Source: Limibacter armeniacum (GTDB lineage Bacteria > Bacteroidota > Bacteroidia > Cytophagales > Flammeovirgaceae). Taken from it: a DNA stretch of 64,000 nt. The stretch covers positions 1,302,001-1,366,000 of the forward strand of contig NZ_JBAJNO010000008.1 of the NCBI RefSeq assembly GCF_036880985.1, written 5' to 3'. Positions 56,463 through 64,000 of this stretch are shown one piece after another; the stretch's first letter is position 1, and every line of letters begins with the position of its first letter. The position numbers were made by a program, and so were the translations under genes. The notes below the pieces were generated by a model that saw only the letters and a program-made list of their open reading frames with translations, had not been told where the DNA came from and did no database searches.

Positions 56463-56833
56463 TTGTAACCAATTAACTGCCATTCACTTTCAGGATTTCA
56501 CTTAAAAGACCTTATATTTGAAGTCTGTCAAAAGCAAAATTCGAACTAACTAATATGAATTGATAAGTTAAAAGCAGTAGCCAATAGCACACTGCACTAT
56601 TTTAACTACACAAAATCTCATCATTCTACAGCTCATTGTTGAACTATGAAATAACAGAAACTTATGAACAAAGTATCCTCTATACCCCTCCATTAACATA
56701 ACCTCCTTTTTTAATATCCTAAGAGCTTATTTTGCCTTGTTTAATTTTACTATATTATACACAATTGGGACTAATTTTATACGGGGACGTCCCTAATATG
56801 TCCCTATTTTTTTGACAACTAACAGTGTATAAT
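56463..56833 (+). promoter_or_regulatory. Integrase upstream region with repeated GGGAC/GTCCC boxes
   Basis: AT-rich 370-bp spacer. GGGAC occurs at 56767-56771, a perfect palindrome GGGACGTCCC at 56784-56793, and GTCCC at 56800-56804, just before the integrase start. This spacing of half sites looks like an operator. TATATTTG at 56513-56520 matches the -7 consensus but lies far upstream. Confidence 0.4.
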
Positions 56834-57886
56834 ATGAGTGTTAAAGTAAGATTGAAGAAGATCTCAGGTGGAAGGTCTCACCTTTACTTGGATATTTCAA
56901 AAGATGGCTACAGAAAAAAAGACTATCTGAAGCTGTACACTTTTGACAACCCGAAAGACCAGGAAGAACGTAGGCACAACAAGCAGGTGAAGGAGCTGGC
57001 CAGACAGTACGCACTTGACAGGGAGCGGCAGATGGTCACCGTGCAGCGGGGTGGTGTCATTGAGTCGAATATGACATTTGATAAAGTATACCAGCTTCGC
57101 ATTTCCTTTGTCAGCAACCAGAATACCCTTAACAACTACCAGTACATGTTTGAGGCAGCGCAGCGTCTTGGTATAGACAAGATAAGTATTAGTCATATAG
57201 ACCGCTATACCTGTGAGCGACTGATGAAGCTGTTGTCTGAAAGCCTGAAGGAGAGCACAGCAAACGAGCGATACAACAAGTTCAGTACTGTGATGAATTA
57301 TGCAGTAAAGGAAGGAATCATAGGCTCAAATCCTGCCACTTTTATAGAGAAGAAAAAGGTCGAGGAAAAGGATATCAGATACCTTGAAGAGTCCGAGCTG
57401 AAGCAACTTGCTTCGGTTAAGCCAGATGGGGAAGAGGTAGAAGTAATGAGGGCGTTCTTGTTCAGTTGCTACACTGGATTAAGAATCAGTGATATCAGGC
57501 GACTGGATTGGAGCATGATTGAAGGGGACAGACTTACAATGGTACAGAAGAAAACAACAGATAGAGTTTACCTGCCTTTGAACAGTACAGCATTAAGACT
57601 ACTAGGGGAGCGTAAGCATGGAAAAGTGTTTTCGGATAATCTTACTACATCACGGATTGATTGGCATTTAAAGAAACTTGCAACAAAGGCAGGTCTCTCC
57701 AAATCAATCAGTTTTCATGTTGCCCGTCATACTTTTGCAACTTGGTTAATCACACGTGGGGTTGATATCTATACGGTTCAGCAATTGATGGGACATAAAA
57801 ATATAAATTCAACTATGAGATATGCGAAAGTGATTAGTGAGAAGAAAAGACAGAGTGTTGAGAGGTTACCAGATATATTACAGTAG
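56834..57886 (+). CDS. Tyrosine recombinase (arm-binding plus SAM-like, Bacteroidota type)
   Basis: 350 residues from the ATG at 56834 (GTG at 56825 is an alternative). The N-terminal arm-type DNA-binding domain (about 1-75) has KKISGGRSHLYLDISKDG. A SAM-like core-binding domain (about 80-175) follows. The catalytic domain has Arg217 (TGLRISDIRRL), Lys239/240, His295 and Arg298 (HVARHTFAT), His321 (GHKNINST) and nucleophile Tyr330 (RYAKV). All catalytic residues are present. The roughly 16-20-residue insertion between box 1 and box 2 that marks integron IntI proteins is not seen. It is encoded in the same direction as, and directly before, the attC-like cassette array, so it may act on it; that is unproven. 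Confidence 0.88.
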   Translation: MSVKVRLKKISGGRSHLYLDISKDGYRKKDYLKLYTFDNPKDQEERRHNKQVKELARQYALDRERQMVTVQRGGVIESNMTFDKVYQLRISFVSNQNTLNNYQYMFEAAQRLGIDKISISHIDRYTCERLMKLLSESLKESTANERYNKFSTVMNYAVKEGIIGSNPATFIEKKKVEEKDIRYLEESELKQLASVKPDGEEVEVMRAFLFSCYTGLRISDIRRLDWSMIEGDRLTMVQKKTTDRVYLPLNSTALRLLGERKHGKVFSDNLTTSRIDWHLKKLATKAGLSKSISFHVARHTFATWLITRGVDIYTVQQLMGHKNINSTMRYAKVISEKKRQSVERLPDILQ

Positions 57887-57950
57887 ATACTGTTTAGATA
57901 TTAAATCTTTTTGAAACTTATTATAGAATTTAAATATATGTTATGATGAA

Positions 57951-58079
57951 AATTTGAACAAAATCAAGAATCCACTAGATTAAAGTAGTTTTTGACACAG
58001 TGCATATATCAACCATGGTGCTTTTACCCCCTGATTTTACGGAATATATATCACTGTGCACTATATACAATTGTTAGCT
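57951..58079 (+). repeat. Leftmost attC-like site (site 0), part of a 126-bp direct repeat
   Basis: The right half is palindromic: CACAGTGCATATAT at about 58009 pairs with ATATATCACTGTG at 58046-58058 with one extra base unpaired. It is followed by TGCACTATATAC, a spacer, and GTTAGCT at 58073, the left junction of the first gene unit. Positions 57951-58076 match 61441-61566 at 112 of 126 bases without gaps. An R''-type box is not certain. Confidence 0.65.
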
Positions 58080-58096
58080 ATCAATAGAACAAAATT

Positions 58097-58663
58097 ATGG
58101 GAGTAAACCTAATTGCTATTTTCCCTTACACTCAATTGAATGAAAAGTTGGATGAGCTGATTGGAAAAATTGAGAAACAAGAGTATTATTCCATAAAAGA
58201 ATATTATGAAGCAACTCTATCCGAAGGGTTTCCCGAATTACCTGATTTTGGTTCACAATGGTATCTTGACGATATAAAAATAAGAGAACGACCAAAGTTA
58301 CCTGACATTAATGCTGCTATTGAATTGTCTAAAGGCTTAGTTATGCGGTTCGGAGAAAGTGGTTTTGAAATATGGAGTTTGATAAGAGCTTTTTTAGCGA
58401 TAAAATTTTATCCAAAAATTGGACAAAAACTATGTGAAGTTTATAAAGAAATTGGAAATGAATTTGGAGCAAATGAATGTTGGATTATGGGCGACGATAA
58501 TCCAATATACCATTCCTTTTTAAAAGGTCAGGATTTTGCAACCATAGCCAGAGAAGTTTCCGAAAAAAATGAATTAAATGAACTTTATAGAGAAATAAAT
58601 GAAGGAGAATACGCTGGTAGCTATGAAATTAAAGGATACTATAAATTGAAAATAAGAGAATAG
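58097..58663 (+). CDS. Cassette gene 1: hypothetical protein
   Basis: 188 residues, soluble, no recognised family. It contains EYYEATLSEGFPELPDFGSQW and a helical middle (IWSLIRAFLAIKFYPKIGQK). The start lies 24 bp after the unit's left junction GTTAGCT, and the stop TAG is part of the R'' box of the attC-like site that follows. Lower GC than the core genes upstream. Function unknown. Confidence 0.7.
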   Translation: MGVNLIAIFPYTQLNEKLDELIGKIEKQEYYSIKEYYEATLSEGFPELPDFGSQWYLDDIKIRERPKLPDINAAIELSKGLVMRFGESGFEIWSLIRAFLAIKFYPKIGQKLCEVYKEIGNEFGANECWIMGDDNPIYHSFLKGQDFATIAREVSEKNELNELYREINEGEYAGSYEIKGYYKLKIRE

Positions 58664-58729
58664 CTAACAATTTGTATAGTTCATATGCTCCCTGCGGGAA
58701 GCAAACGAACCATACAAGAGGCGTTGTGC
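58660..58729 (+). repeat. attC-like site of cassette 1
   Basis: 70 bp. R'' ATAGCTAAC (58660-58668) is the exact complement of this unit's left junction at 58073-58081; the match extends to 13 bases. Arms TTGTATAGTTC (58672-58682) and GAACCATACAA (58707-58717) pair with one mismatch. GCTCCC/GGGAAGC forms the tip. It ends GGCGTTGTGC, which begins the next unit. The TAACAATT...GCGTT layout closely resembles class 1 cassette attC sites. Confidence 0.82.
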
Positions 58730-58743
58730 TTAATAGAAGACGA

Positions 58744-59184
58744 ATGACAAAGGTATTAAAGTTTATAACTGTTGGACTCTGGATTTTAATCCTAATAATT
58801 TGGATTGGAGATTTGTGGGTTGGTATTCCAACAGACGTTTCTGACGATGTTACTCGAGGAATCGTTGAACCAATGCGAACAGACATGGACAATGCGATTC
58901 AAACAAGAAGAATAATATCGGTTCTTATTTTAATTCCTGCCTTGACTGTTTTCGGATTGATAATTTATGGTATACAAAAAAAGAAAAATCACCTGTTTTA
59001 TATCGGAATGACATTGACTATTATACCAATACTAACAATTGGAATACTTGGTCTGATTCAAGAATCTGAAATGCCATACAAAAATGTAGTACTGTTGATT
59101 CTCTGTACTCCTCTAATATTTGGACTGATAAAAGGACTAAAAGAAATACACGAATACAGAAAATTAAAACTTGAAAATAAATAA
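58744..59184 (+). CDS. Cassette gene 2: small membrane protein
   Basis: 146 residues from the ATG at 58744; the open frame extends upstream into the attC-like site, which is not expected to be coding. Four predicted membrane segments: LWILILIIWIGDLWVG, VLILIPALTVFGLIIYGI, IGMTLTIIPILTIGILGLI and VVLLILCTPLIFGLIKGL. No family is recognised. The stop is 6 bp before the R'' box of the next site. Confidence 0.7.
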   Translation: MTKVLKFITVGLWILILIIWIGDLWVGIPTDVSDDVTRGIVEPMRTDMDNAIQTRRIISVLILIPALTVFGLIIYGIQKKKNHLFYIGMTLTIIPILTIGILGLIQESEMPYKNVVLLILCTPLIFGLIKGLKEIHEYRKLKLENK

Positions 59185-59190
59185 AACTAT

Positions 59191-59342
59191 GCACAACACT
59201 GTATATAGCAAATAGGGCGTTCTGTGGTTAACGAAAGTTTAAACCTATTTACAAACACCACCAAATCGTTGATTTGGCTCAGTACAAACTTGATACTTTA
59301 TCTGGATCTTGTGCCCTACTTGCCATATACTAATCATTATAT
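59191..59342 (+). repeat. attC-like site of cassette 2
   Basis: R'' GCACAAC (59191-59197) is the exact complement of this unit's left junction GTTGTGC (58723-58729). Long arms GTATATAGCAAATAGGGC (59201-59218) and GCCCTACTTGCCATATAC (59313-59330) pair at 16 of 18. The right end is weaker: ATTATAT at about 59336 stands where GTT is expected. Confidence 0.75.
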
Positions 59343-59372
59343 TTAATTCCTTACCAATAATTTATATAGAAA

Positions 59373-59861
59373 TTGAATTTTTATGAACTAACCGCACTAA
59401 GAGATAAAGATGCTATTGTATTACAAGCTAGTAAGATTAATGGCTTTACTATGTACAAGACGTTATTCGAACAGTCTAAAATCCTAGATGAAACTCCTCT
59501 TAAAGTTATTAAAGGTTATATAGAATATGATATAGTTGAAATTTATGGAGTAGGATCTCATTTTTTAATAAGTAATAGGGTTCTTGAAATACTTCGAAGG
59601 AATGAAATAAAAGGATACAGTATTTTAGAGCCATTATGTGATGAATTAAAAGGTAGTTATTATTGGTTTATAGTTAATGGAAAAGCAGGGCCAATTATTA
59701 ATAACATCGATAACTCAAAAAAACTTGAATTTGACATAAATACGTGGGATGGGTCAGATTTCTTTAACCTAGACGGCACCCTCTTGAATGTTTGCACTGA
59801 CAAGGTTGCTGAAATTCTTGAAAATGAAAACATTTCAAATATTGAGATAAGGCTTTTATAG
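59373..59861 (+). CDS. Cassette gene 3: Imm11-like immunity protein candidate
   Basis: 162 residues using a TTG start at 59373; no in-frame ATG precedes it within the unit. The C-terminal half with GSYYWFIVNG, WDGSDFFNLDG and VCTDKVAEILENENISNIEI recalls the DUF1629/Imm11 immunity family of polymorphic toxin systems. The call is from memory of motifs and moderate. No toxin gene is adjacent. A solitary immunity gene in a cassette would fit a bystander-protection role. Confidence 0.6.
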   Translation: MNFYELTALRDKDAIVLQASKINGFTMYKTLFEQSKILDETPLKVIKGYIEYDIVEIYGVGSHFLISNRVLEILRRNEIKGYSILEPLCDELKGSYYWFIVNGKAGPIINNIDNSKKLEFDINTWDGSDFFNLDGTLLNVCTDKVAEILENENISNIEIRLL

Positions 59862-59894
59862 TTGATTTCTTCATTCATCGAATAATTAAAAGAA

Positions 59895-59984
59895 AAACAT
59901 AACATCGGTTATAGGTGCATTTCGAGACGTTACGGTCGACTAGACCTTTGCCGGCACACATGCACTATAGTTTAGTCATTGTAG
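59895..59984 (+). repeat. attC-like site of cassette 3
   Basis: R'' AAACATAAC (59895-59903) matches the complement of the left junction ATTATATTT at 7 of 9. Arm TATAGGTGCA (59910-59919) pairs with TGCACTATA (59961-59969) with one extra G left unpaired. The tip is GGTC/GACC. A 39-base stretch (59901-59939) is identical in the next site. Right end TCATTGTAG, with A in place of the usual G. Confidence 0.75.
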
Positions 59985-59999
59985 TTAAATAAATGAGTT

Positions 60000-60383
60000 T
60001 TGAATGTTACCAAGAATACTTTAACAATAGCATTGTTTGTGCTATTTATTTCAGCTAATAAGCCTGTTAATATTCAAGGTTGTTATTCTGGAGGATATTT
60101 TGATACTAGTTACCTATATCAATTTATTGATGGTGAATTTAAATTGTCAGTAGTCGGACATGGAGGACCTTATAATGTAAAGGGGTTTTATGAAGTTGTA
60201 GCAGATACATTAGTCTTGTTCAAAGTAGAAAATAGAAGAGTAAGAGGAAGAGAAAAAATGCTTATAGATGGAGATTCATGTATCATAGATCTAAGAACTT
60301 ATCGGGATTTTTGTAAAATTGAATTAGATCAAGATTCTACTTTTACGGAGCACTCTTCTAGAAAACGAAAAATAAAAAAATAA
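60000..60383 (+). CDS. Cassette gene 4: small exported protein, function unknown
   Basis: 127 residues with a TTG start at 60000; an ATG at 59993 is out of frame and gives only a short peptide. The first 20-25 residues (TLTIALFVLFISANK) look like a signal or anchor segment. The mature part is beta-rich with a CYSGGYFDTSYLYQF segment and FYEVVADTLVLFKVENRR; it resembles small lipocalin-like or LPS-binding folds only loosely. No family assigned. The stop TAA overlaps the region of the R'' box. Confidence 0.6.
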   Translation: MNVTKNTLTIALFVLFISANKPVNIQGCYSGGYFDTSYLYQFIDGEFKLSVVGHGGPYNVKGFYEVVADTLVLFKVENRRVRGREKMLIDGDSCIIDLRTYRDFCKIELDQDSTFTEHSSRKRKIKK

Positions 60384-60469
60384 CTACAACATCGGTTATA
60401 GGTGCATTTCGAGACGTTACGGTCGAGCCGACCTTTGCCAGAACACACACACTATACTAGGTGTTATAG
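60382..60469 (+). repeat. attC-like site of cassette 4
   Basis: R'' AACTACAAC (60382-60390) is complementary to the unit's left junction ATTGTAGTT at 8 of 9. It shares 39 identical bases (60388-60426) with the preceding site, including TTATAGGTGCA and the GGTC...GACC tip. It ends TAGGTGTTATAG (R' at 60463-60469). Confidence 0.78.
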
Positions 60470-60493
60470 ATAAACAAGAATAGAGAATATTAA

Positions 60494-61120
60494 ATGGCTA
60501 ACAAGGTTATTAAAATATTACTAATTGGATTAATTGTCTTACTTATAGCCTTCTTAGGCTTCAAGTATAGCTGGCGGCTATTTGATGATAAAGACGAATT
60601 GATAACATTTTCACTTAGAGTAGAAAATACAAAAAATATTCCTGACAGCTTAATGGATATCTACACTACAGTTTATCCACATCATATCAATAAATCAACA
60701 ATACAAGAAATAGTAATTGGATACGGTAGTAATATATTAGCTGGTGTTGTAAAAGATTACGATAATTGTTTTTGCGACGAGATAATTCGTGATGAACTAT
60801 TTGGATATAAAAAATACCCAAAAGCTCTTATTAGAAGATTTCAGTCATTACGCCTGTCGTTTGGACTCGAATCTCTTGTAGAAGAAAATAAGTGCTTAAA
60901 TTACTATCTAATAAAGGAATACGAAGAAGTAAATCGTAATAATTCAAGTTATGCTTATACATGGGCAAATAAAACGATATTCGAACTTACAAAGTTAGAA
61001 TTTATTGAATTTTTGGCTATAAGAAATGCACCTAGGTATTATAACAAATTTCTTAACAAGGATAATTATAACCGAAGTATGAACTTCATTGAAAATAAAA
61101 TAAAAAATGCCAGCCTATAA
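60494..61120 (+). CDS. Cassette gene 5: membrane-anchored protein with GT51-like tail
   Basis: 208 residues. An N-terminal membrane anchor (IKILLIGLIVLLIAFLGF) is followed by a soluble part. The C-terminal segment FELTKLEFIEFLAIRNAPRYYNKFLN resembles the end of peptidoglycan glycosyltransferase (GT51) domains, where LSxxExAxLxxxxxxPxxYNP is typical. The usual catalytic Glu motif (EDxxFxxHxG) is not visible, so activity is doubtful. Its stop overlaps the R''-like box CTATAAT. Confidence 0.5.
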   Translation: MANKVIKILLIGLIVLLIAFLGFKYSWRLFDDKDELITFSLRVENTKNIPDSLMDIYTTVYPHHINKSTIQEIVIGYGSNILAGVVKDYDNCFCDEIIRDELFGYKKYPKALIRRFQSLRLSFGLESLVEENKCLNYYLIKEYEEVNRNNSSYAYTWANKTIFELTKLEFIEFLAIRNAPRYYNKFLNKDNYNRSMNFIENKIKNASL

Positions 61121-61569
61121 TCGAGTAGACGCCGTGAGCCATAAGCTTACAGTATTTCTCCTCAATAATATAATACTACCATAAGTCTTATACGAAAATT
61201 TCAGAGCTAGACCCTTAGGGTTTGGCTTTTTTGTTTTATGATATGGTCTTGAAATATCACATCCGTTTCCAACCTACCCAGTAGAACTTTACTTCCTGAC
61301 TGATAACACATGTGTGGTCAAATTACCAAGTGCTTTATAGTGGAAAGAAATTAACTTCTAAAATTCTAATTTGATAACTGTCTGTAATTTAGTGATAAAG
61401 GAAAAATGCAATCTTAAATACACACATATGTACAATGAACAATTTGAATAAAATCAAGAATCGATTAGATTAAAAGACTTTTTGATACAGTGCGAATATC
61501 AACCATGATGCTTTTACCCCCTGATTTTACGGGCTATATACCACTGTGCACTATATTCAATTGTTATAA
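61115..61569 (+). repeat. Extended attC-like region of cassette 5 with second copy of the 126-bp repeat
   Basis: It opens with CTATAAT (61115-61121), complementary to six bases of the unit's left junction GTTATAG. The 3' part (61441-61566) is the second copy of the 126-bp repeat and ends CAATTGTTATAAGC. The stretch of about 320 bp between them has no gene, only a terminator-like hairpin. This site is longer than a normal attC, so an extra degenerate cassette may be hidden here. Confidence 0.55.
61205..61233 (+). terminator. Terminator-like hairpin after cassette gene 5
   Basis: AGCTAGACCCT/AGGGTTTGGCT (9 of 11 paired) followed by TTTTTTG. Confidence 0.6.
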
Positions 61570-62160
61570 GCTATTCGGAAAGTCCTGCGTTTTGGTGGAG
61601 AGGTGGCTAGCAAGGAGGTAAGTAATGGCATCCGCAAAGTGGTTTTTAAGTAAAATATACAACTTAGCTTTTTCTGTGCCAGACCCAAAGGGTTTGGTTT
61701 TTTACTTTCCGCCTGAATCCTTGAGAAAACGTGTTTTCGGAAAGCGGAAGGTAGCAGGTAAAAAAAGCTGATAACCTGTCAGCGTATGCAGAAAAGCTAA
61801 CGCAATTAAAGGACAAAAACCACCTTACGCCGATAAATGAATAGCATCTCCTTAGCAGAAGAGTAGCTCCAAAACTGGTTTCGTGCCGGCTTGTACATTG
61901 GAGAAACGGCCGATAGTTTAGCCAAAGCCTCAAACACTATCCGTTTCATTTTTTAATACTCCCTTCTAGCGTAAAGAAAAAGCCGGATCGAACAAAGTAG
62001 CAGGAGCAGGAATTCCCGACGGTACCTGTTTTACTTTCACACACTGTGCCTCACCAAAGAAACGCTGTAAAACAGCTTATAACATGTGCTATCAGTTTAT
62101 TAAATCTTGGATTAGTACTATATTGAGAAGGATCAAGCTTGAACAAACGATAGCTTGGTG
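61564..62160 (+). other. ORF-poor cassette
   Basis: This unit has an exact junction pair: GTTATAAGCT at 61563-61572 and AGCTTATAAC at 62074-62083. It has no recognisable plus-strand gene beyond a possible 48-codon ORF. A minus-strand frame of about 89 codons exists but does not look like a protein. Base composition is richer in GC than its neighbours, and a hairpin CCAGACCC/GGGTTTGG with a T run lies near 61680. It may carry an RNA, a promoter or a dead gene. Confidence 0.55.
61625..61771 (+). CDS. Possible 48-residue small protein
   Basis: An ATG at 61625 is preceded by AAGGAGG at good spacing, an unusually strong ribosome-binding site here. The product is basic with an amphipathic start (MASAKWFLSKIYNL) and a Lys/Arg-rich end. 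The internal terminator-like hairpin argues against it. No homologue is recognised. Confidence 0.3.
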   Translation: MASAKWFLSKIYNLAFSVPDPKGLVFYFPPESLRKRVFGKRKVAGKKS

Positions 62161-62169
62161 TTGTGTGTA
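62074..62169 (+). repeat. attC-like site of the ORF-poor cassette
   Basis: R'' AGCTTATAAC (62074-62083) is an exact 10-base complement of its left junction. GCTATC (62088-62093) pairs with GATAGC (62149-62154). It ends GGTGTTGTGTGTA, the left junction of the next unit (62160-62169). Confidence 0.78.
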
Positions 62170-62204
62170 ACATTTAGAAATCAATACTAATAGGCTCTTT
62201 AAAC

Positions 62205-62957
62205 ATGGAAAAATTCACTTTTGTTGGTGATTGGGAGTTCAAACTTAAACTAGATTTACTGTCGAGTGATCAAATCGATTGTAGAATAAATGATGTTAAG
62301 GACGAAAACCCAAATCCTGAAATAGAACAGATCAACTCAGTTAACTATCTAATTTCAAATCAAGGTGAAATATTGACAGGGATTTGTCAAGCTCTTAAAG
62401 AAAAATTCATCCCTACATTTAACTCGTTAGTTGATGATGATCAAGAGCAAATCCCAACAAATCAGAACGATAAAGAACTTTACGATAAGGAATTATACCC
62501 CGGAAGAATTATTATTTCGAATATATATAAAGACAACTATGCATATGTACTGCTTTCGTTTGGTTCTACACAAATAGACCCAGAACATGGCATTAGTTTT
62601 ATTTTTCACAAGAACAGATACGTTGGATCTGATGACGATTTTAAGGAAGCACATGAAGAATTAGGATTTAATTACAAAAAAATCCTTCAAGATATAAGTG
62701 CTAAAAATCAAGCTCAATTCGATAATAAGGATTACAACTTTCATGAACCTAAATCAGAAAGTGTCACTTTAAAACCATGGCAAATACAGGAGAATAGAAT
62801 TTACCCTTATAGGCTTCTTCAAACTAACCAACCCGAAAAATTCATTGATTTCATGGAAAACAAAGGGATTCATTTAGAGTTAGATATTTCATCTTTGAAA
62901 AACGTTGCCGAAAATCAAGGTCTTAAAAAAGTATCTGATTTTTTAGAAAACATGTAA
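62205..62957 (+). CDS. Cassette gene 6: DUF6985-like hypothetical protein
   Basis: 250 residues, soluble. The middle has SFGSTQIDPEHGISFIFHKNRYVG, which recalls the DUF6985/DUF2262-type pattern EHGLGVxxHKxR found in many toxin-neighbour proteins. The C-terminus (FIDFMENKGIHLELDISSLK) is helical. The function is unknown. ATG at 62205 is 45 bp after the left junction; the stop precedes the R'' box directly. Confidence 0.6.
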   Translation: MEKFTFVGDWEFKLKLDLLSSDQIDCRINDVKDENPNPEIEQINSVNYLISNQGEILTGICQALKEKFIPTFNSLVDDDQEQIPTNQNDKELYDKELYPGRIIISNIYKDNYAYVLLSFGSTQIDPEHGISFIFHKNRYVGSDDDFKEAHEELGFNYKKILQDISAKNQAQFDNKDYNFHEPKSESVTLKPWQIQENRIYPYRLLQTNQPEKFIDFMENKGIHLELDISSLKNVAENQGLKKVSDFLENM

Positions 62958-62959
62958 AA

Positions 62960-63119
62960 TACACACAACAAGGGCTATGATACCATGTCGTGTCAGTGGG
63001 TTACGGTAGGTTTGTGGTTACTTACAAGCCCCGCGAATTCAAAGAATTCGCTACTTAGATAAACGAAACAGAATACGAACTTAAACACGCCACGGTGCAT
63101 AGCCAGAGCGTTGCCTACA
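62960..63119 (+). repeat. attC-like site of cassette 6
   Basis: R'' TACACACAAC (62960-62969) is an exact 10-base complement of GTTGTGTGTA (62160-62169). The long arms at 62973-62993 and 63085-63104 pair at about 17 of 20 with one extra base on the left arm. The tip is a perfect GCGAATTC/GAATTCGC hairpin (63033-63051). Ends GAGCGTTGCCTACA. Confidence 0.82.
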
Positions 63120-63138
63120 ATACAAAAGATCGAAACAG

Positions 63139-63828
63139 ATGAAATATTTTTTAGCTTTAATACCAGTTTTGTTATTCATTTCTTGCATGAATAGCTCAAA
63201 TAATAAGGACGAACAGAAAATAGTTAAATCAGTTGCAGAACCTGTAAAAAGTACTAATGAAAAAGTTGAAGTCAATTCATTAGAAAATGAAGAGATTTCC
63301 TTAGAATCTTGGGCAGATTTAATTAAAAATGCTCCAGAAAATAGTAAATCAGAGTTTTATTTAAAGGATTTTAAAATTGGAAATTTAATTTGTCTGGATT
63401 CTACGAAATTTGGAGAAGAAATTCGTAGAATTTATTTATTAGAATCTTCATATTTATTAAGTGTAAAACCCAATATTGGAAAATTCTATCCATGCATAAT
63501 TTATGGACAACAATATGACTGTGATCAAATTACAAATTTTTTAGCTTTAACAATGATTGACTCTACTTTTAAATCTTTAGGTCAAATTGAATTTATTTCA
63601 GGATTTGGAAACGATTGGGAAGGCAGTTGGGATTATAGGGGCATAATCAGGGATTCTACATTATTAATAAAGCGCATTGACGATGTTGAATGTTTGGATG
63701 AAGAAGGAAATCCAATTGAAGGCTATTCTCATCTTGAAATTGATGAAAAGTATAAATTAAATATAGATGGTAGTATTCAGAATATAAGTAATGATACCAT
63801 AAACAAAAAGTACTGTAGGCAACAATAA
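63139..63828 (+). CDS. Cassette gene 7: lipoprotein, function unknown
   Basis: 229 residues with a lipobox (LLFISC, Cys about 16). The mature part is acidic and Asn/Ser-rich at first (NSSNNKDEQK), then mixed alpha/beta with WADLIKNAPENSKSEFYLKD and FISGFGNDWEGSWDYRG. No family recognised. The last codons (CRQQ and stop) lie inside the R'' box, so the recombination site shapes the protein's end. Confidence 0.65.
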   Translation: MKYFLALIPVLLFISCMNSSNNKDEQKIVKSVAEPVKSTNEKVEVNSLENEEISLESWADLIKNAPENSKSEFYLKDFKIGNLICLDSTKFGEEIRRIYLLESSYLLSVKPNIGKFYPCIIYGQQYDCDQITNFLALTMIDSTFKSLGQIEFISGFGNDWEGSWDYRGIIRDSTLLIKRIDDVECLDEEGNPIEGYSHLEIDEKYKLNIDGSIQNISNDTINKKYCRQQ

Positions 63829-63950
63829 ATATACGTAATGCGGGGTGATTTTGTGAATTTGAACATTAAAGCATTTAATAAACAATGTATCGGTTTGACA
63901 GTGGAGTGCCTTGAAATCCCGAACTACGCATATTCGAGCCGTTGTAAATC
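63814..63950 (+). repeat. attC-like site of cassette 7
   Basis: R'' TGTAGGCAAC (63814-63823) is an exact complement of GTTGCCTACA (63110-63119) and overlaps the gene end. Arms ATACGTAATGCGGG (63831-63844) and CCCGAACTACGCATAT (63918-63933) pair imperfectly. It ends GAGCCGTTGTAAATC at 63941, the start of the next unit. Confidence 0.75.
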
Positions 63951-63969
63951 ATAAAACTAAATACCAAAT

Positions 63970-64000
63970 ATGAAAAAATTTGTGGTTAATAAAGTTTTAA
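63970..64000 (+). CDS. Start of cassette gene 8 (runs off window)
   Basis: ATG at 63970 opens MKKFVVNKVL, still open at the window edge. Its position, 29 bp after the GTTGTAAATC junction, fits the start of the next cassette gene. Nothing about function can be said. Confidence 0.4.
   Translation, partial: MKKFVVNKVL

Follow-up and report, generated by a model that had tools for sequence, protein, structure and literature searches.

The tyrosine recombinase gene next to the cassette array in the analysed window (the whole stretch of 64,000 nt from Limibacter armeniacum, positions 1,302,001 to 1,366,000 of contig NZ_JBAJNO010000008.1, here called C8) encodes the integrase of a tailed prophage of 38.9 kb, whereas the row of small genes beside it looks like part of an integron-like gene-capture system that is seen in many relatives and is headed by a different recombinase. 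The latter is related to IntI but lacks the I2 insertion, which is thought to be needed for the capture of gene cassettes. We hold this explanation, in which two separate things lie side by side, with good confidence, although recombination was not measured. A sequence-only reading of the DNA had described the flagged protein as a tyrosine recombinase with an N-terminal arm-binding domain, without the IntI insertion and pointing the same way as the cassettes, and this observation is confirmed. It had further proposed that the array is either an integrase-less cluster or is moved by a different recombinase family, which turned out to be correct only in part: the array does lack a local integrase, and a different family does seem to move such cassettes, but that family is not the one of the flagged protein. 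The features are listed in Table 1.

Table 1. Features of the window and related positions on contigs C8 and C9 of the same genome (window coordinates unless a contig is given; matches are between the seven bases at the start and at the end of a cassette)
Position	Strand	Feature	Details
56658-56676		left flanking repeat of prophage P1	18 of 19 nt identical to its partner, first 15 exact
56784-56815; C9:647800-647845		GGGACGTCCCT..TGTCCC motif just upstream of both prophage integrases	perhaps arm-type or operator sites
56825-57886	+	flagged tyrosine recombinase, integrase of P1	353 aa from GTG; ATG at 56834
57945-57983	+	3' remnant of the array's own I2-less integrase gene	DENLNKIKNPLD, stop; last 12 codons
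57984-58075	+	attI-like site	ends in GTT at 58073-58075; conserved at 13 places of the genome, some partial
58074-58723	+	cassette 1	ORF 58097-58663; 6 of 7
58724-59336	+	cassette 2	ORF 58672-59184 begins before it; 6 of 7; site ends in ATT instead of GTT
59337-59978	+	cassette 3, decayed	ORF 59373-59861; 5 of 7; site ends in ATT
59979-60463	+	cassette 4	ORF 60000-60383; 7 of 7
60464-61121	+	cassette 5	ORF 60494-61120; end decayed (AAT for AAC); 4 of 7
61199-61236; 61671-61708		repeated terminator-like hairpin	GACCC..GGGTTTGG then T run; also upstream of the integrase in loci L002 (the intact integrase gene) and L004
61441-61566	+	second copy of integrase tail plus attI-like site	89% to the first copy; GTT at 61563-61565
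61564-62160	+	cassette 6	597 bp, no evident gene; 7 of 7; two further copies at 94% in the array at C8:524731
62161-63110	+	cassette 7	ORF 62205-62957 (DUF6985); 7 of 7
63111-63941	+	cassette 8	ORF 63139-63828; 7 of 7
63942-64000	+	start of cassette 9	its AAC lies at 64583, outside the window; 6 of 7
95545-95563		right partner of the P1 repeat	outside the window (C8:1397545-1397563)
C8:1358658-1397563		prophage P1	38,906 nt from end to end; window coordinates 56658-95563
C9:607901-647964		second, related prophage	about 40 kb; exact 23-nt repeats at 607901-607923 and 647942-647964
C9:646744-647790		paralogue of the flagged protein	69%
C9:1638522-1639643		intact I2-less array integrase gene (L002)	374 codons; heads a full array
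C8:1070221-1071341		second copy of the array integrase gene	disrupted

The flagged recombinase and its prophage

Pfam searches of the flagged protein gave Phage_integrase (95.9 bits), Phage_int_SAM_5 (33.3 bits) and Arm-DNA-bind_5 (31.0 bits), each over its cut-off. In an alignment of 15 rows the catalytic R, H-x-x-R, H and Y columns (R234, H323, R326, H349 and Y358 of the first row) are invariant, this protein included, while the catalytic K is not in an aligned column there. The roughly 50 columns that IntI1 has between patch II and the H-x-L-R-H box are absent from the protein, and integron-integrase models score far below cut-off (TIGR02249, 57.9 of 265 bits). The gene reads in the same direction as the ORFs and sites that follow.

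The DNA beyond this gene and beyond its paralogue on C9 is colinear from 66384 to 93367, in nine blocks of 85-95% identity. Encoded there are small and large terminase subunits, a prohead protease, a probable tape-measure protein, an exonuclease, a replication initiator and a repressor-like protein, the last three assigned by PHROG matches. Both elements are flanked by direct repeats, and in both the repeat lies about 150 nt before the integrase. These are two related tailed prophages, and the flagged gene, which lies at the end of the first, is its integrase; in this view its job is to integrate and excise that prophage, reactions that were not assayed. Membership of an unrelated prophage or ICE had been named in advance, in the sequence-only reading, as a finding that would speak against a role of this recombinase in the array, and it is what we found. 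Between the integrase end (57879) and 66384 no DNA match at E 1e-5 links the two prophages: in this cargo interval between integrase and repressor region the first carries the cassettes, at 31.9% GC against 46.0% in the rest of the prophage, whereas the second carries other DNA with no chained cassettes on either strand. Similar to Bacteroidota prophage and mobile-element integrases with Arm-DNA-bind_5, the protein has a three-domain make-up and lies at a prophage end; Bacteroidales plasmid records carry a 'site-specific integrase' at 29-34%, the best-listed match among phage records has 34.0% identity, and nothing unusual was seen.

That the flagged protein itself moves the cassettes, as its position directly upstream and its direction might suggest, is very unlikely. 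Homologues at E 1e-60 were found in 1 of 58 relatives and in 1 of 295 sampled genomes of the class, the own genome each time, while such arrays are widespread; in these large searches only the best first-look candidates of each genome were scored.

Platform and cassettes of the array

The array has a platform of its own. A 126-nt repeat at 57951-58076 and 61441-61566 consists of the end of another integrase gene and the stretch after it. The intact gene on C9 shares this tail and attI-like site at 96% identity over 128 nt. The tail and site are scattered over 13 places of the genome while one integrase copy is intact and one disrupted; how the tails spread is unexplained. The copies that were read diverge directly after GTT and one further base. 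A near-palindrome of 41-47 nt, perhaps an operator, sits just upstream of the intact integrase gene (L002:821-867), between it and a divergent small ORF, and also beside the attI copy at C8:524731. A canonical intI elsewhere in the genome, which the sequence-only reading had named, with an attI and identical attC sites, as evidence against its interpretation, was sought with TIGR02249: of 21 matches none was over the cut-off.

Downstream of the intact gene, ORFs alternate with hairpin sites; the cassettes are single-gene cassettes that read the same way as the integrase. Each cassette starts with GTT and about seven bases and ends with their reverse complement and AAC, with other letters in other cassettes. 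A hairpin scan of 29 loci (11 from the own genome and 18 of the 21 from relatives, L102, L107 and L108 being left out because little sequence follows the gene) found 176 sites, with none in the Persicobacter plasmid locus L122. Start and end agreed at 6 or 7 of 7 bases in 65 of 148 neighbouring pairs, against 106 of 2194 other pairs, some of which are repeated cassettes, and 8 of 176 for the two sides of one site. This is the cassette logic of integrons, where R'' and R' come from the two ends of one circular cassette. At its low threshold of 8 the scanner finds about as many sites in shuffles or on the reverse strand as on the real strand, so that the counts for cassette pairing and for array occurrence rest on a threshold of 10 and above all on the start/end rule. 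The detector and its thresholds were built on these data, and the 6-of-7 rule enriches for pairing; a looser link to the first cassette was not used. Cassettes recur as units with ends at the crossover: of 201 repeat copies over all loci, 85 begin within 12 nt of the cassette start, 121 end within 12 nt of its end and 55 do both, and many of the others run on into a neighbouring site of the same type.

In the window the scanner alone chained only two pairs, since several sites have decayed; the other boundaries were placed by reading and then scored. The base at position 8 after GTT is A and unpaired in all nine cassettes. Among 10 cassette-interval proteins Pfam found one domain (DUF6985), PADLOC found nothing in 8 proteins, and Rfam had no match at gathering score in 40000-64000.

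To locate attI, a hairpin-plus-GTT score was used to choose one GTT within 180 nt of the integrase stop codon without regard to cassettes. In 29 of 50 loci the next seven bases matched the end of the first or second cassette at 6 or 7 of 7; by sequence an attI that accepts cassettes lies next to the integrase gene, but its recombination was not tested. The hairpin scored 8 or more in 12 of 55 loci, in 0 of 275 shuffles and in 0 of 24 stretches beside XerC/XerD genes, the direction of which was not checked; many attI-like sites are near-perfect inverted repeats.

Distribution and kinship of the array integrase

The array integrase has matches at E 1e-40 in 28 of 58 relatives' genomes, own included, and a profile of eight array integrases matches 148 of 295 class genomes at E 1e-65, own included. 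From along that ranking 40 stretches were taken, avoiding visible contig ends, and the 31 with at least 2 kb after the gene were analysed: chained cassettes were found on the integrase strand in 17 and on the other strand in 1. The latter, L172, has chained cassettes on both strands downstream of its integrase, 3 forward and 2 reverse, perhaps an inverted or second array. In a scan of named genomes (best 80 of at least 585 kept), 25 Bacteroidota loci had 2 kb or more downstream; 13 were positive, 1 on the reverse strand, and 0 upstream on either strand. With our detector 14 of the 31 and 12 of the 25 loci showed no chained cassettes. Of 21 loci from other or unassigned phyla none was positive downstream, and one, in Pseudoalteromonas, was positive upstream on the divergent strand. 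Positive hosts include Arundinibacter, Aquiflexum, Winogradskyella, Seonamhaeicola, Aquimarina, Arcticiflavibacter and Carboxylicivirga.

Two other candidates for moving the cassettes were considered, and both are very unlikely. The arrays could be ordinary CALINs (attC clusters) served by a canonical IntI, past or in trans. Canonical IntI over the cut-off is indeed common in the phylum (84 of 296 genomes), and on eight such loci the same detector found chained cassettes on the divergent upstream strand in 4 and on the opposite strand in 0; of two of these searched downstream as well, one gave a single chained pair. However, the own genome has none over the cut-off, among the 84 positive genomes one is listed as same class and none as same order (the number of class genomes sampled is not shown), the arrays start beside the I2-less gene and run in its direction, and position 8 of R and the stems differ from those of IntI sites. 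Alternatively, host XerC/XerD or another recombinase could act, with the I2-less gene as a passenger. XerC/XerD-type matches were found in 36 of 41 genomes sampled in the phylum for each model, so these enzymes are available, but the arrays are tied in place and direction to the I2-less gene, with the attI-like site by its stop codon.

The best NCBIfam model for the array integrases is NF040815 ('tyrosine recombinase/integron integrase'), over its cut-off in three of five members and under it in two, or TIGR02249, at 194.5-221.6 bits in the five members and thus below its cut-off of 265 bits. The TIGR02249 match is in two stretches, in the own genome model positions 7-180 and 240-313, and IntI1 has about 50 extra columns in between. 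Of 34 array-positive integrases, 33 have 48-63 residues from patch II to H-x-L-R-H and one was not measured, against 82-100 in the 5 of 16 IntI rows that the pattern could measure; the I2 insertion near patch III is missing. A predicted model of a member (mean pLDDT 84.2, pTM 0.55) shows one helix in that stretch. Foldseek ranks XerA chains first and VchIntIA (2a3v) fifth, which we take as support only, and the best solved-structure sequence matches are an archaeal XerC-like enzyme and XerA. The array integrases share with XerA, XerC and XerD the fold and the absence of I2, but differ in carrying attI and cassettes.

In a tree of 70 proteins the array integrases plus IntI stand apart from XerC plus XerD at 100/100, and IntI is a clade of its own at 100/100 into which the I2-less integrases do not fall; they lie beside or around it. 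Two XerD rows in a wrong frame (L223, L230), the rows L191, L207 and L208, two IntI fragments (L125, L129) and the arm recombinases were left out of this tree. The I2-less group is whole in 10% of 200 bootstrap trees, but holding it whole is not rejected (p-AU 0.203), so that a sister and a nested position of IntI are both compatible with the data. In a wider quick tree of 104 rows, from which near-duplicates were also left out, IntI again lies among I2-less recombinases, including proteobacterial ones, which showed no arrays. The array-bearing Bacteroidota integrases L199, L290 and L299 fall nearer to IntI than the main group in this tree. IntI is kin to this group, with its exact sister open.

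Site structure, mechanism and relation to known systems

Of 262 chain-verified sites in 47 loci, C precedes GTT in 258, a purine follows in 258 and a pyrimidine precedes AAC in 257; the median length from AAC to GTT is 122 nt. Comparison with the integron core site GTTRRRY/RYYYAAC gave a mixed picture that does not settle agreement with it, since GTTR is present in 258 of 262 sites but the next base is T or C in 128 of 262, and the second and third bases after GTTR are often not purines. In 186 chained cassettes, selected for 6 or more matches of 7, pairing after GTT is 96-100% at positions 1-6, 70% at 7, 2% at 8 and 84% at 9 and 10; positions 8 and beyond were not selected for. Position 8 is A opposite C in 102, A in 20, G in 16 and T in 3 of 141 distinct arms, and is kept unpaired in 138 of the 141, whereas in IntI arrays it is paired in at least 20 of 25. 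Of 198 stems 127 are straight, 38 have a 5' bulge, 17 have a 3' bulge and 16 are unclear; with most stems straight but some bulged, these counts do not decide whether extrahelical bases of the attC kind belong to the sites. The corresponding numbers for IntI arrays are 1, 7, 2 and 11 of 21, a small and largely unclear sample.

The sequences themselves show the platform, the attI-like site, cassette boundaries at G^TT, hairpin sites with cassette-specific and complementary outer arms, the recurrence of cassettes with matching ends, and the association with this integrase family across the class. What the integrase does at these sites is our inference: it would cut G^TT in attI and in a hairpin folded from one strand of a circular cassette, inserting cassettes at attI and excising them, and the conserved unpaired A eight bases after GTT, with other mismatches, would mark the strand in place of extrahelical bases. 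Recombination of a folded single strand is inferred from arm pairing only. That the window array, its local integrase lost, could be served in trans by the intact copy is a guess. An alternative, which we consider unlikely but less so than the others, is that the I2-less integrase acts on double-stranded L'-GTT sites like Xer or a phage integrase, the hairpin form being incidental or serving another purpose. The lack of the I2 helix, the mostly straight stems, as on the CTXphi site that is said to mimic double-stranded DNA (PMC4792948), and the near-perfect inverted repeats of many attI-like sites are in line with this. However, the two ends of a cassette pair with each other while the letters change from cassette to cassette, and position 8 is kept unpaired; a purely double-stranded reaction needs neither, which argues for a folded strand as substrate.

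Similar to integrons, the system has an integrase gene related to IntI, an adjacent attI-like site, arrays of short cassettes, and attC-type hairpin sites with AAC/GTT ends, crossover at G^TT and cassette-specific complementary ends. It differs in the missing I2 insertion, the co-directional integrase, the bases after GTTR, the stems mostly without a bulge and the unpaired A at R position 8. By its features the system is integron-like but it lacks I2, so we do not file the integrase as IntI. In the integration of folded single strands of the CTXphi type by XerCD (PMC4792948, PMC7790495), hairpin sites largely without extrahelical bases are likewise used with an I2-less recombinase, which for the present system is inferred; here the integrase is dedicated, has an attI-like site and serves arrays of many cassettes.

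Published work states that I2 is necessary for cassette capture, has been found in no other protein and is, with single-strand recombination, exclusive to integron integrases, but also that direct proof of causality is lacking and that no inferred ancestor is available (PMC7790495, PMC4792948). Archaeal IntI also have the IntI-specific domain (PMC9668308). Complete integrons are said to be very rare in Bacteroidetes (PMC9024848); integrons are listed for the phylum Bacteroidota (PMC8618304) and intI is reported in the Bacteroidetes/Chlorobi group (PMC2426708). A literature search, restricted to open-licence papers and without bioRxiv preprints, listed no paper that describes an I2-less cassette system or such arrays in Bacteroidota. 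It is somewhat more likely than not that Bacteroidia carry a widespread second kind of integron, the integrase of which, sister to or of the ancestral type of IntI, captures cassettes through folded single-stranded sites without I2 and mostly without extrahelical bases, using the conserved unpaired A in the R arm to set the strand; cassette capture then preceded I2 or arose without it, and in this genome a prophage carries such an array. An attI-linked, array-bearing, I2-less integrase family in half of the sampled class genomes could explain part of the lack of an ancestor and of proof as a blind spot of IntI-based searches. It would make the origin of the integron reaction testable with living enzymes and point to a large pool of mobile, mostly unannotated genes.

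Many draft contigs stop within about 2 kb after the integrase (9 of the 40 stretches taken from class genomes), as if repeated cassette sites break assemblies. In addition, seven listed near-identical copies of a related recombinase with a 326-aa frame, 36-37% to the array integrase, occur at several places on contig C1 of G021, one of the genomes searched, like a multicopy mobile element.
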